Source: Novosphingobium sp.
GTDB lineage: Bacteria > Pseudomonadota > Alphaproteobacteria > Sphingomonadales > Sphingomonadaceae
Reading direction: 5' to 3'
Assembly: GCA_013141325.1 (NCBI GenBank)
Contig: JABFRE010000207.1
Coordinates: forward strand, 1-43,163
Length of the DNA stretch: 43,163 nucleotides
A program made the translations under genes and the position numbers. Below are positions 12,907 through 36,004 of the stretch, piece by piece (within the stretch, counting starts at the first letter, position 1; each line of letters begins with the position of its first letter). A model generated the notes under the pieces. That model saw nothing but the letters and a program-made list of their open reading frames with translations, was not told the DNA's origin and made no database searches.

Positions 12907-15131
12907 CTATTTCCCCAGAAAGTTGGTCCAGGTCACATAAGGCAGGATTGTGGCGTGGTCATCGCTCCACACCCGCGCTGCGGGCGGCCCCAGCGTCCGC
13001 CACGGCTGATCCGGAACTGCAGCGGTCAAGGCCTTGATCCGGGCTGGATCGCGGCTGAGCGCAATCCAGCTCGACGCGGTAAGACCGCCGTCCATGACCG
13101 GATTGTCTTCGCGCAGCACGGCGGTCAGGCCCCGCGCCCGCGCCATCGCGGCCAGCACCGGTTCAAGTTCGATGAAGCGGTTGGAAATATGCACCAGCAC
13201 GATGCCGTCGCGCGACAACGCGCGCTGGTAGACGCCGAACGCCTCCGTGGTCAGAAGATGCAGCGGGATCGAATCCGATGAGAAGGCATCGATTGCCAGC
13301 AGGTCGATCGAGCCCGGCGCCGCCTTGCCCAGCTCGATCCGCGCGTCGCCGATCACCACCCGGGCCTGGGGGGCGCAGTCGCGCAGGTAGGTGAAGGTGC
13401 CGTCCTGCGAATAGGACAGCACCACCGGATCGATCTCGAAGAACTGCCAGGATTCGCCCGGACGGTGGTAGCAGGCCAGCGAACCGGCGCCGAGCCCGAC
13501 CACCCCGATCCGCGCGCCCGGTCCGAACAGCCGCTGTGCCTGGGCGAAGGCCAGTCCCGCACCCGAGGTGGGGCCGTAATAGGTCAACGGCTGGCGGCGG
13601 CGGGCGGGATCGAGCGATTGCTGGCCGTGCAGGGTAGTGCCGTGGACCAGGGTGCGCATCTTCTCGCCCAGCCGGTCGCGCACGGTGTAGATCCCGAAAT
13701 AGCTGCGCTGGCGCGCGCCATCCAGCGTATCGTTGACGGTAAAGAACCCGCCTTCGGCGAGCATCGCCAGCAGCAGAACCGGCAGCGCCATCCCGCGCCA
13801 CTGGCTGAGCACCAGCCCGGCCACGGTCACCGCGCCCAGCCACAGCGCCAGCGCCAGGCCGTGATCGTCTTCGAGCGAAAGCCGGATCGAGCCGATCTGG
13901 ATGCAAGCCAGGATCGCAAGGCCGAAAGCCGCCAGTCGAATCACCGGATGGGTGAACGATTCGACCCCCGGCAAGCGCCGCCAATCGAACCACGGCGCGG
14001 CAGGCAGCAACAGCGCGGCCAGCAGCACCAGAAGCGGGTGCTCCCAGGCCCAGTCGAACGCCACCGGCGCGATCAGGGCGGTAAACACCCCGCCCAGCGC
14101 CCCGCCGGCCGACATCACCAGATAGAACAGTGTCAGATGCGCGGGGTCGGGCCGCTCGTCATAGAGCCGGGCGTGCAGCGCCACGCACAGCAGAAACAGC
14201 AGCGCGACCGACGCGAACACCGGCAGCAGCCCGCTCGATCCCTGGGCGACCATCGCCATGGCTCCGGCGACGAACAGCGCCGGCCAGGCGAGCGCGGTCA
14301 TTGCCCGCGCCGCACCGCGCCGCTCGGCAAAGGCAAAGACGAAACTCAGCAGATAGATTCCCAGCGGGATTACCCACAGCAGCGGCATCGCCACCAGATC
14401 GGTGGTCAGGTGGGTGGTGGTGGACAGCATCAGCCCCGACGGCACCGCCGCCAGCACCAGCCACGACAGGATCCGGCGGGCCGGCAGCGGGGGTGCCGGG
14501 TATTGCGTCGGCGCGGCCGGCTGCACGCCGTCTGCCGCGCTCCAGCGCGCCCGCGCCGCCAGCGCCACCAGTACCAGCAGTGCGCCATAGCCCAGGCTCC
14601 AGCCCAGCGCCTGTCCGCGCAGCGGCAGCGCCGGTTCGACCAGCAGCGGATAGGCGATCAGCCCGCCGAAGCTGCCCAGGTTCGACGCGGCGTAGAGCGC
14701 CCACGGCGCTCCGGCTTGGGGATGCAGCGCAAACCAGCGCTGCATCAGCGGGGCCTGCGCCGAAACCAGGAAGAACACCGGACCGATGGTCAGCGCCAGC
14801 AGGGCCGGAACCCACAGCGCCTCCATGCCCGGCTGCGGCGAGGGCAGATCGGCGAGGGCGATCGGCAGGGTCAGCGCCGCCAGCACGAACAGGCCGAGAT
14901 GGATCGCGGCCTGACGGCGCAGCGGCAGCCGCGACAGCGCGTGGGCATAGGCGTAACCGCCCAGCAGCAGCGCCTGATAGACCAGCATCGCGCTGTTCCA
15001 GACATTGGGAGCGCCCCCCAGCCGCGGCAGGGCCATGCGCGCCACCATCGGCTGGACCAGAAACAGCAGGAAGCTGCCGGTCAGGATCGTCGCGACGAAC
15101 AGCGCGCGCGACGGACGGGCTGCCGGACCGG

Positions 15132-31675: not shown

Positions 31676-34360
31676 TTAAGGGGCCGCAGCAACCTGGCTG
31701 GTCGGCGCCGGATCGATCCGGATCCGCCCGAGCCGCAACGAACTGTGGGCCTGATCGATCCGCAGCAGGCCGCCGAGTTCCGCCCGTACGCCCAGCGCCG
31801 CCGCGACCTTGGCGGAAAGTCGCAGCCGGTATTCGCCATAGGGGATCGAATCGAACAACAGGTATCCGTCGAATTCGGAGACAATTCGGCGAATCACGGC
31901 GCCCGAGCCATCGACCAGTTCCACCGTCTGCCCGGCCCGGACCTCGCCATCGAGCCCGACCAGAGTCGCCTCGATCTCTCCCGTCGGCGCCAGCGGCAGC
32001 AGCAGCGGCGTGGCGACACCTGGGCGCGGGGTAACCACCATCCCGCGCCCCTTGGGCTGCAGCAGCGGATCTGGCAGGCTGCCGGTGTCGATCCCGACCA
32101 GCACCGGCACATAGGGCCGCAATCCCTCGATCACGGTCCGCCCGGCGGCATTGGTGGGCGCGCGCGAATGGCGGAAGCCCGCCTCGATCGTCACCCCTTC
32201 GACCGATCCCTCCCCCGGCTGGCGCAGCCCGTCGCCGTTGTCGTCACGAAACACTTCGACCGCCGCGGTGCCGGTCTGGGCGAGCTGCTCGCGCGCCACA
32301 CGCCAACCGCCGTCGGCTGGATCCTGACCCAGGCTGAAGGCCAGCGACAGTCCCAGGCCGATCCCGCCGCGGGTGTCGTAGCGCGCATCGCCGCGCAAAG
32401 CGAAGTGTTTGAATTGTCTTACATATCCCAAGGTAAACTGGTTGATCCGGCTGTCGCGATCATAGGCGTAGGCGCCGCGCAAAGTGGAGCGTTCGGTCAG
32501 CGTTCTTTCCGCCGTCAGCGTCGCCGCGTGCAGCCCGCGTGTGCCGCCGGCCAAGCGCCAGCTCGCCTCGCCCCGCATCCGCACACCGCGAATCGCGCTG
32601 TTACCGATCAGCTGGATGAAAGTCCCGTCGCTGGGCGCGGCGGCCAGGCCGGTGCTGCGCTTTTGCGAGAGCTCGGTGCCCAGGAACACCCGCCCGAAGC
32701 GGAACGAAGCCCGGCTGGACCATTCGAGCGTCTCGCGCCCGTCGCGCATGGTCCAGTGCCGCAGTCCGGCCTGAATCGGCAAGCTCAACCGGCCAAGCTT
32801 GACGCGCCCCGACAGCCGCAGCGATTGTTCGCGCAGTGCGTTGGCCGAGACGAGTTCACTTTCGAATGCCCCCGCCACCCACAGTGTTTCGGCCGAGAAA
32901 TAGATGCCGCCAAGACGGCCCAGCGCTTCCGCACGCAAGGCCTGGCCAGCGCCAAGCTGCTTCGCCCCCGCCAGCTGGATCAACATCGGGCCGACCGAGC
33001 GGTTGACGCTCGCTTCGACGTAGTTCCGGCGGCGGCCATTCAGCACCAGGCTTTGCCATTCGAGCCCGGCGGTCGTCCGGTCGTCGAGTCCGCGTTCCAC
33101 GCCCACGCCCCAGCGCCAACCGGTTTTCGAAGGGTCGGGATTGGAGGTCAGCTCGATCAGATCGCGATCCTGCTCGATCGCTCCGGCCCAATACCAGGTT
33201 TGACCCTTGGGAAGACTGTCGAGCCCGACCGGCATGTTCGAGCGGTCATGGCGAACCTGCCCTTGCGGGCCATAGAGCACCACATCGAAATCGTTGTCGC
33301 CGAACTGCAGCTCGATATCGGTGAATTCGTAGCGTCCGTCGCCGCGGTCGCCCTGGTAGGCGCGCAGCTCGCCGTTGACATAAAGCTCGGCATCCCAGCC
33401 CACCGGCAAGGTGCCGCGCAGTGTGGTTGCCGAAAACCGGGTCGGCCGATCGATCGGCCGGTTGGAGAGGAAGGCCCCGCGGCCAACCGCGCTCTGCCCG
33501 GTCAGGGCCCCCGGCAGCACCTGGACGTCACCCGCCGCAACCTGTGTGGCCTTGAGCGGACCGAGCAGCGTCGCAGCCGGATCATAGCGGTAGGCCCGCA
33601 ACCGCAGACTGTCGGGTACGCCCCGCGTGTCCGAAGCGAGGCGAACCTCGGTACTGGCGCCCAGTACCTCGCCGCTGGCCAGCACTTCGTACTGGGCGGT
33701 AAGATTGCCGCCGGCGGCGCGCGACCTTTGCCACTGGCTGCGCAGCAGGACGTCGACCGCAGGCGTGCGCCAGTTGCGGTAGGGGGTTTCGGCCTGAGGC
33801 AGCTTGGCGATGTCAAAATCGGCGGTCTTGCCCTTGGAAAGTCGCGCGGCGCGACTTTTGCGTTCGATCGCTTCCAGAAACGGCAGCTTGGTCTCGCTTT
33901 CGAGGCGGATGGTCATGGTTCCCAGCTCGGGCCGGAACCGCACGCCGAACCAGGCCGACAGCGCCGCCAGATCGGTGCACCAGCCTTCGGGAGTGTCGCG
34001 GATCGCGGTGGTGGCGAGCTTGCTGGTTCCGTTCATGGTTTGTACCGAAAATGCTTCGCGATCGAGAGTGAAGCGCTGGTCCTCCGCGAAGATCCAGCCG
34101 GTTGCGCGGCGCGACTTCTTGTCAAGCCGCACCGGCAGGTCGAGCGCGATGATCAGATCGGCCATGTCAACGCAGACGCCCTGCGGGGTCTGGTAGCCGC
34201 GCAGGGTTTCGCCAATCCGGTATTGTCCGGCGTGCAGCTCAAGGATCAGGGCGTCGTCGTCGTTGGCCTGCCAGGGCGCGGCGGCATGGCCGCCAGACGC
34301 GGCGGCGGCCGCCGCGAAGCCCGCAGCGGCCAAAGCCATTCGTCTGATCCAGCCCGCCAT
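31676..34360 (-). CDS. Usher-like outer-membrane protein (non-canonical chaperone-usher system)
   Basis: Signal peptide; usher-like segments GTLPVGWDAELYVNGELRAYQGDRGDGRYEFTDIELQFGDNDFDVVLYGPQGQVRHD; long barrel-like region; SdrD-B-like VEVFRDDNGDGLRQPGEGSVEGVTI; usher-like tail DPLLQPKGRGMVVTPRPGVATPLLLPLAPTGEIEATLVGLDG. Next to a pilus-type chaperone gene. Confidence 0.75.
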   Translation of the reverse strand: MAGWIRRMALAAAGFAAAAAASGGHAAAPWQANDDDALILELHAGQYRIGETLRGYQTPQGVCVDMADLIIALDLPVRLDKKSRRATGWIFAEDQRFTLDREAFSVQTMNGTSKLATTAIRDTPEGWCTDLAALSAWFGVRFRPELGTMTIRLESETKLPFLEAIERKSRAARLSKGKTADFDIAKLPQAETPYRNWRTPAVDVLLRSQWQRSRAAGGNLTAQYEVLASGEVLGASTEVRLASDTRGVPDSLRLRAYRYDPAATLLGPLKATQVAAGDVQVLPGALTGQSAVGRGAFLSNRPIDRPTRFSATTLRGTLPVGWDAELYVNGELRAYQGDRGDGRYEFTDIELQFGDNDFDVVLYGPQGQVRHDRSNMPVGLDSLPKGQTWYWAGAIEQDRDLIELTSNPDPSKTGWRWGVGVERGLDDRTTAGLEWQSLVLNGRRRNYVEASVNRSVGPMLIQLAGAKQLGAGQALRAEALGRLGGIYFSAETLWVAGAFESELVSANALREQSLRLSGRVKLGRLSLPIQAGLRHWTMRDGRETLEWSSRASFRFGRVFLGTELSQKRSTGLAAAPSDGTFIQLIGNSAIRGVRMRGEASWRLAGGTRGLHAATLTAERTLTERSTLRGAYAYDRDSRINQFTLGYVRQFKHFALRGDARYDTRGGIGLGLSLAFSLGQDPADGGWRVAREQLAQTGTAAVEVFRDDNGDGLRQPGEGSVEGVTIEAGFRHSRAPTNAAGRTVIEGLRPYVPVLVGIDTGSLPDPLLQPKGRGMVVTPRPGVATPLLLPLAPTGEIEATLVGLDGEVRAGQTVELVDGSGAVIRRIVSEFDGYLLFDSIPYGEYRLRLSAKVAAALGVRAELGGLLRIDQAHSSLRLGRIRIDPAPTSQVAAAP

Positions 34361-34406
34361 GACGTCAGGTTCCGCGCATCAAGCCCAGGATTTCCGCGCT
34401 TCCCGC

Positions 34407-35285
34407 TCAGCCGATCGCCGAATCGAGCGAAGCGATCAGCGCTCCGCCGTTTTCGGGAAGCTCGCGGTATTCGATCCGCACCCGGCGGCCTTTGAGCGCC
34501 GCAGCCTGTTCCGCCGAGAGCGGCACTTCGACCTTGCGCGACTGCACCTCGGGATAGACCGCGATCCCGCGCGACTGAACCAGCGGATCGCCGCCGCCCG
34601 CCGGACGCACCAGCAGCTCGCCGAACACCGAACGGGTACCGCTGCGGTGCAGGTCGAGCATCAGCGTAGGGCGGTTCTGGATCGTTTCGAGATGCGGATT
34701 GGTCATCGTCGCGGTGGCCTGAAGCTGACCTTTGCGGACGATCACAGGGATGGTGATGCCGTAGATCGGCTGCAGCTTGATCGTGACACCCTGGGCGGTC
34801 TGGGTGGTGACGGCCTTGTCATCATCGATCGGTGCGCCTTCGTCGGGCACGGCCCGGAACAACATGTGTACGCGGTATTCGCCATCGGCCAGTTCGGGCG
34901 CTGGGCGCGCGCTGATCCGGATCGACTGCGGCTGATTTGGCGGCAGCAGAATCCGGCGCGGCGCATAGCGGACCATCTCGATTGCAGCCTTTTCGGTCGC
35001 CGCAGCATCGGCGTCGGCCACATCGTCAAGCTCGCCGTCCGGAGACATGCGGCGCAGCTCGAGGCTGATCCGGTAGGTCGCTGGCGCGGTGCCGATATTG
35101 TTGAGAATGACTTCGGTGCTGCCGCCGCCGGCCAGGACAACCCGGGTCGGCGCGATCAGCAGATCGCCGCGCGCCTGGGCCTGGGTCTGAACCGCGCCCA
35201 GCACCAGCGTGAGACTGCCGCTCAGCACGGCCAGAGCGCGCCGCAGCGCGGCAGGAGAACGAAAGCGTTTCGAAACTGGCAGCAT
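34407..35285 (-). CDS. Periplasmic fimbrial/pilus-type chaperone
   Basis: Signal peptide, then RGDLLIAPTRVVLAGGGSTEVILNNIGTAPATYRISLELRRM...VRYAPRRILLPPNQPQSIRISARPAPELADGEYRVHMLFRA: PapD-like Ig fold. Confidence 0.85.
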   Translation of the reverse strand: MLPVSKRFRSPAALRRALAVLSGSLTLVLGAVQTQAQARGDLLIAPTRVVLAGGGSTEVILNNIGTAPATYRISLELRRMSPDGELDDVADADAAATEKAAIEMVRYAPRRILLPPNQPQSIRISARPAPELADGEYRVHMLFRAVPDEGAPIDDDKAVTTQTAQGVTIKLQPIYGITIPVIVRKGQLQATATMTNPHLETIQNRPTLMLDLHRSGTRSVFGELLVRPAGGGDPLVQSRGIAVYPEVQSRKVEVPLSAEQAAALKGRRVRIEYRELPENGGALIASLDSAIG

Positions 35286-35362
35286 GAATGATCCCGCACG
35301 AAGTGTTGGCCCGGCGGCAACGCGCGCCTCCGGGAATTCCCCTGGGTTCTAGGCGGTCATGG

Positions 35363-35377
35363 TTAACAATCGGCTAA
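35363..35377 (-). promoter_or_regulatory. CtrA-like binding box upstream of the chaperone gene
   Basis: Minus strand TTAG-CCGATTG-TTAA-CCAT: TTAA-N7-TTAA with one mismatch, overlapping a TTAACCAT 8-mer (35359-35366). About 78 bp upstream of the chaperone start. Confidence 0.35.
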
Positions 35378-35410
35378 GCAAAGCCGGCCGGCCGCGCCCG
35401 GACCACGACA

Positions 35411-35441
35411 AAGGCCGCGCCGGTTTCCCGGGCGCGGCCTT
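35411..35441 (-). terminator. Strong hairpin between the DUF4402 gene and the chaperone gene (terminator/attenuator-like)
   Basis: AAGGCCGCGCC / GGCGCGGCCTT: perfect 11-bp inverted repeat, 9-nt loop, 41 bp downstream of the DUF4402 stop. Only a short T-tract on the minus strand. Confidence 0.7.
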
Positions 35442-35482
35442 GCCTGGTTCCTGTCCCGGCGGAAAGCCGCCGGAGACCGGGA

Positions 35483-36004
35483 TTACTGGTACTGAACCTG
35501 CACGTCGAAGGTACCGGCATAGGCACCGGCAGCCTGGGCAGCCGCCACGTGCAGCGTGCCGCCGACGTTGAAGTCAGCCGTGCCGCCAACCAGCGTGTTG
35601 CCGTTCGGGAAATCCGAAGTCCAGGTGTCAACCGACATGGTCGGCGCGGCGCCGACGCCGGTCCAGCCGACATAGGTCAGCGTCGAAGCGGTGGCAGGCA
35701 GGGTCACGGTGACGGCGGTGTTGGCATCGCCGGTAACGTTGAAGCCGGCAGCCGAGGCAGCGAAGCCCGGGCACACCAGCGCGCCGACGGTGCAGCTGAT
35801 GTTGCCGTTGGTGGCAACCACGACAGTGCCCGCGCCGTTGACGGCGATGGTGTCGAAGTTCAGCGGAGCGGTGTTGGTCACGTTCAGCGAGCTGAGGATC
35901 GTGGCAGTGGCATCAGCCGTGGCGGTAGCCGCCTGAGCCGAAGTGGCAAGCGAAGCGGCGGCAACAGCCATACCGACAACAGCGAGACGAAGCGAAGTAC
36001 GCAT
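35483..36004 (-). CDS. DUF4402 domain-containing protein (putative secreted/pilin subunit)
   Basis: Signal peptide MRTSLRLAVVGMAVAAASLATSAQA; TATILSSLNVTNTAPLNFDTIAV...GNISCTVGALVCPGF...GGTADFNVGGTLHVAAAQAAGAYAGTFDVQVQYQ is typical of DUF4402. Alternative start at 36028. Confidence 0.9.
   Translation of the reverse strand: MRTSLRLAVVGMAVAAASLATSAQAATATADATATILSSLNVTNTAPLNFDTIAVNGAGTVVVATNGNISCTVGALVCPGFAASAAGFNVTGDANTAVTVTLPATASTLTYVGWTGVGAAPTMSVDTWTSDFPNGNTLVGGTADFNVGGTLHVAAAQAAGAYAGTFDVQVQYQ

Follow-up and report, generated by a model that had tools for sequence, protein, structure and literature searches.

A probable chaperone-usher pilus operon of a divergent Sphingomonadales family with a DUF4402 protein as predicted pilin

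Subunits of the classical (Fim/Pap) chaperone-usher pili carry a C-terminal motif formed by a glycine at position -14 and a penultimate aromatic residue, and a two-domain tip adhesin is usual in chaperone-usher systems, although it is not needed in every one. In the chaperones of archaic and alternative pili, Arg89 (CsuC/EcpB numbering) is the most characteristic residue and the hallmark of the non-classical type (PMC4654587). The window analysed here, the whole stretch of 43,163 nucleotides of Novosphingobium sp. contig JABFRE010000207.1 (assembly GCA_013141325.1), contains on its minus strand, at 31676-36004, three consecutive genes encoding a protein of DUF4402 (PF14352, carried in Pfam as a family of unknown function), a chaperone and an usher-like protein, each with a signal-peptide-like start. 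Our analysis makes it probable that these genes form a chaperone-usher pilus operon belonging to a divergent family, in which DUF4402 would be the pilin and the subunits would be encoded partly at remote sites. Behind this reading stand the homology of the three proteins, their gene order and co-occurrence, their motifs, remote paralogues specific to genomes with a minimal locus, and a hairpin. The original prediction was correct in its observation of the three genes, and the sequence strings that it quoted are present; of its interpretation, the chaperone-usher system with a DUF4402 subunit is supported, whereas the alternative-type usher, the single-subunit fibre and surface-layer secretion are not.

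The 173-amino-acid protein is a clear DUF4402 member, scoring 95 bits against a gathering cut-off of 25.2. Its signal peptide ends in AQA, an alternating segment (ATATADATATILSSLNV) lies at the N-terminus, and the C-terminus (GAYAGTFDVQVQYQ) places a glycine at -14 and a tyrosine at -2, as in classical subunits. Across 99 DUF4402 sequences, the aromatic residue at -2 is found in 96, the glycine at -14 in 87 and both in 85. The DUF4402 profile also matches that of the SCPU pilins of archaic (Csu-type) pili, at 96.1% in local and 97.2% in global alignment (reversed control at most 0.2%). The confident part of this alignment is the C-terminal 34 residues, and the two families share the ending GxYxxTxxVTVxY, although DUF4402 extends one residue further past the aromatic. 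The source genome (90% complete) also departs from the archaic pattern, as neither a PF05229 (SCPU) match nor a Pfam-level usher was found in it. The original prediction had pointed to a pair of closely spaced cysteines, which is present in the window protein and missing from the orthologues of loci L022-L024. Exactly two cysteines occur in 37 of the 99 sequences, and the pair was rejected as a defining feature because those orthologues lack it.

The usher could be recognized only at the level of its family. Searches of Pfam, NCBIfam and PDB with the single 894-amino-acid protein retrieved no usher, but only a sub-cut-off match to SdrD_B. With profiles built from relatives drawn from whole genomes, 46 family ushers aligned with FimD and 14 other alphaproteobacterial ushers at 99.6% (E-value 1.5e-23, 653 columns), over residues ~131-858, the reversed profile reaching 9.5%. 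As in classical pili, the aligned part includes the plug, barrel and C-terminal regions of known ushers, and the naming of a plug domain is taken from this alignment. Comparisons of small family profiles with single Escherichia coli sequences (FimD, EcpC, FimC, EcpB, FimA and EcpA) were uninformative and counted neither way. Regarding its class, the usher profile scored 213 (99.6%) against the FimD and archaic set and 113 (97.6%) against an alternative set which is small (six TcfC-type ushers and EcpC, n = 7) and unequal in size to the first (n = 15), while the two sets score 383 against each other. The family thus appears real but divergent, and nearer the classical/archaic than the alternative set as far as sets of unequal size can be compared, contrary to the proposed resemblance to CFA/I-CS1/Ecp rather than FimD/PapC ushers. 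Two peculiarities of other loci can be added here. The ushers of a clade with several subunit genes (L027-L030, L032, L042, L044-L046) mostly lie in frames of ~1,200-1,330 amino acids, in which 300-450 residues precede the part that matches ushers. In L035 (genome G005), two overlapping frames share the usher match in a frameshift-like manner, the subunit and chaperone genes being open.

Similarly, the single window chaperone gave nothing significant in Pfam, NCBIfam or PDB, and its PapD-like nature was seen solely through family profiles. PapD_N was matched by five of the 15 family members (best E-value 1.3e-7), and the family profile reached 97.7% against known chaperones, with 0.3% for the reversed control. 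On these profiles, it is a PapD-like chaperone of two immunoglobulin domains. Its P109 and R138 are kept in 44 of 45 family rows and, in the hhalign alignment, fall on P80 and R109 of the EcpB precursor, which correspond to mature Pro60 and Arg89 once the 20-residue signal peptide is subtracted, although the match itself scores low (4.7%). By this alignment, the conserved arginine of non-classical chaperones is present as R138, a feature shared with archaic and alternative pili. R48 aligns with Arg8 of FimC, as in classical pili, but the lysine anchor of FimC has no equivalent (the position is T178), and the non-classical Arg138 is conserved instead. R214 and Y244, also found in 44 of the 45 rows, are candidates for the remaining anchor residues.

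The equivalents of EcpB Pro60 and Arg89, together with the 97.6% match of the usher profile to TcfC/EcpC-type ushers, are what would be expected if the locus were a standard alternative system (CFA/I-CS1 or Ecp) that had merely drifted. We consider this quite unlikely, as the usher scores well below the mutual score of the known sets and better against the classical/archaic one, neither a TcfC match nor a separate EcpD-like adhesin was found in the source genome, and DUF4402 matches SCPU but not a single EcpA sequence, which is a weak test.

The SdrD_B-like stretch of the usher, announced as an insert by the original prediction, is present (E-value 2.2e-5, under the Pfam cut-off). Nevertheless, it was rejected as an inserted foreign domain because it lies in the usher-aligned C-terminal region and is conserved throughout the family. 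It corresponds to an EF-hand-like loop, whose acidic or asparagine positions 1, 3, 5 and 12 are conserved in 44-45 of the 45 ushers of the family and which is missing from the 15 classical/archaic and seven alternative ushers compared (22 in total). The loop may bind calcium, and it distinguishes the family from the archaic comparison set. This unusual loop, and the fact that no fibre has been seen, would be compatible with an outer-membrane protein that exports DUF4402 to the surface or an S-layer with no pilus being formed. Such an export system seems very improbable, given the usher homology over the plug, barrel and C-terminal regions and a DUF4402 protein bearing both the pilin motif and the SCPU match.

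The association of these genes was surveyed in 201 genomes of Sphingomonadales, counting ushers at an E-value below 1e-50. Usher and DUF4402 were each found in 64 genomes; 63 have both, one has the usher only, one DUF4402 only and 136 neither (Fisher p = 3.5e-50, uncorrected for shared ancestry). DUF4402 therefore occurs in only one of the 137 genomes without the usher, and in a phylum-wide sample it is rare outside one Sphingomonadales family. Rare matches outside the class were found in L165-L168 (genomes G559, G553, G634 and G407). In nearly all loci fetched, a DUF4402 gene lies immediately upstream of the chaperone and usher genes. This co-occurrence in 63 of the 65 genomes having either gene and the kept adjacency, added to the profile homology of all three proteins and the pilin motif, favour DUF4402 as the assembled subunit, as originally predicted. 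No publication naming DUF4402, or dealing with chaperone-usher pili of this group, was found in the literature searched (subscription papers not covered), and the family is divergent, widespread and apparently undescribed.

The usher tree has three main groups. The window locus belongs to a clade of 24 loci, from at least 12 genera, whose members hold one or two DUF4402 genes; a second clade comprises 11 loci with three to five DUF4402 genes; and a third comprises four loci with one upstream DUF4402 gene and a two-domain protein encoded 3' of the usher. The arrangement DUF4402(1-2)-chaperone-usher is therefore the stable standard form of its clade, not an odd one. In the third clade (L031, L033, L047 and L062, from genomes G011, G013, G136 and G231), the secreted protein directly 3' of the usher consists of a ~150-residue new N-terminal domain with a cysteine pair, followed by DUF4402. 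Tip adhesins are classically built in this way, and the protein is likely one, with an uncharacterised binding domain; the order pilins-chaperone-usher-(two-domain tip) of this clade is again shared with archaic pili.

The original prediction had read the locus as lacking an adhesin and making a single-subunit fibre. No two-domain adhesin was found in the source genome (90% complete), which agrees with the first part, but two further DUF4402 genes lie on other contigs, and the adhesin-like protein exists in the related clade. Every one of the 24 minimal-locus genomes sampled has remote DUF4402 genes (one to five, each over 9 kb away from the usher), compared with only two of the 15 with multi-subunit or adhesin-coupled loci. 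This remote encoding is a point of difference from archaic pili, and the products of the remote genes bear the same C-terminal pilin motif. Among 30 stretches fetched, 21 of the 28 remote loci, from 21 genomes (including L036:8041-8832), share one syntenic site, flanked in the source genome (G000:C29) by a TldD/PmbA peptidase gene on one side and an ABC ATPase/nadB-like pair on the other. The second remote gene of the source genome (G000:C218) is near ygjP-like and feoB genes and is shared with three genomes. Just outside the minimal clade, L069 (genome G229) has four DUF4402 genes beside the usher, the full number counted in its genome, an arrangement that suggests the splitting of an ancestral operon.

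These remote genes bear on whether the operon makes a true single-subunit fibre or coat, the remote DUF4402 proteins being separate secreted proteins. In favour of such a fibre, 22 loci hold a single subunit gene, the two-domain adhesin was not found in the source genome, and the 98%-complete genome G067 has one DUF4402 gene in all. It is nonetheless unlikely, considering the distribution of the remote genes (24/24 against 2/15), the near absence of DUF4402 where the usher is missing, the pilin motif of the remote copies, and the fact that searches of the source genome saw no further PapD chaperone and no Pfam usher, SCPU pilin or TcfC. The locus thus appears neither odd nor truly single-subunit, with the seemingly missing subunits probably encoded elsewhere in the genome.

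Several observations weigh against a pilus operon with remote subunits and must be considered. The minimal loci belong almost all to one usher clade and are not 24 independent cases, so one or few evolutionary events may account for their association with remote DUF4402 genes. G067 has its minimal locus outside this clade, with its single DUF4402 gene, and genome G153 has an usher with just a very weak DUF4402 match. Finally, single-sequence AlphaFold2 predictions of the DUF4402 protein and the usher gave mean predicted local distance difference test (pLDDT) values of 33 and 32, respectively, and are meaningless.

The region 3' of the DUF4402 stop codon folds with a z-score of -3.55. The second of its hairpins (35402-35449) has -34.7 kcal/mol and a T-rich 3' side, and an equivalent is found in all 24 minimal loci; two-sided changes affect five of 12 pairs in 13 aligned hairpins. 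A simple consensus promoter/terminator scan did not call this hairpin and Rfam added nothing. The structure fits a terminator or attenuator that would raise pilin over chaperone and usher, although it may instead terminate transcription completely, with a separate promoter lying further downstream.

The features of the locus are gathered in Table 1. Its neighbours are an acyl-CoA dehydrogenase gene and parB, both named in the original prediction and identified by family search. As parB is a conserved neighbour in 20 loci, a recent acquisition was rejected. Elsewhere in the window, the AT skew stands out at 14001-15000, where its value of 0.366 far exceeds that of the remaining sequence.

Table 1. 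Coordinates and evidence for the features of the DUF4402-chaperone-usher locus.
Feature	Position	Strand	Evidence
DUF4402 protein, predicted pilin	35483..36004	-	173 aa; PF14352 E 7.3e-27, C-terminal motif, SCPU profile match
Hairpin pair, GC-rich, 3' of DUF4402 stop	35402..35482	-	Folding; read as intercistronic terminator/attenuator
Periplasmic chaperone	34407..35285	-	292 aa; profile 97.7% vs known chaperones
Outer-membrane usher	31676..34360	-	894 aa; profile 99.6% vs FimD/archaic ushers
Usher plug-region equivalent, residues ~308-375	33236..33439	-	RFSATTLRG...ELYVNGELRAYQ...GRYEFTDIELQFGDNDFDVVLYGPQGQ; in register with FimD profile
EF-hand-like 12-residue loop DDNGDGLRQPGE, usher residues 706-717	32210..32245	-	Source of SdrD_B match

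Taken together, these results suggest a family of pilus operons centred on one family of Sphingomonadales. The DUF4402 pilins would be exported by Sec and then held by the chaperone through the non-classical C-terminal anchor, and the usher would then build a surface fibre from them by donor-strand exchange. The hairpin 3' of the pilin gene would cause pilin to be made in excess over chaperone and usher. In the minimal clade, the operon would keep only one pilin, probably the main one, and the remote DUF4402 proteins, likely tip or minor subunits, would have to depend on this one chaperone and this one usher. Donor-strand assembly, the fibre itself, attenuation by the hairpin, calcium binding by the usher loop, the identity of the tip subunit and any role in attachment are inferred. 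Going further, these operons could represent a separate, undescribed branch of chaperone-usher systems, with a DUF4402 pilin, a calcium-binding usher loop that may gate assembly, and pilus genes split across the genome, so that a single central chaperone-usher pair would assemble remote, vertically inherited subunits; we propose this broader picture tentatively, at somewhat less than an even chance.

The interest of the locus lies more in unrecognised machinery and split subunits than in the supposed lack of an adhesin. It offers a testable function for a Pfam family of unknown function, DUF4402, and points to a pilus system, present in roughly one in three of the Sphingomonadales genomes sampled, which ordinary annotation misses because neither the chaperone nor the usher is recognised. 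If the remote subunits are indeed pilus parts, they would provide a useful case of a pilus that is not confined to one operon.

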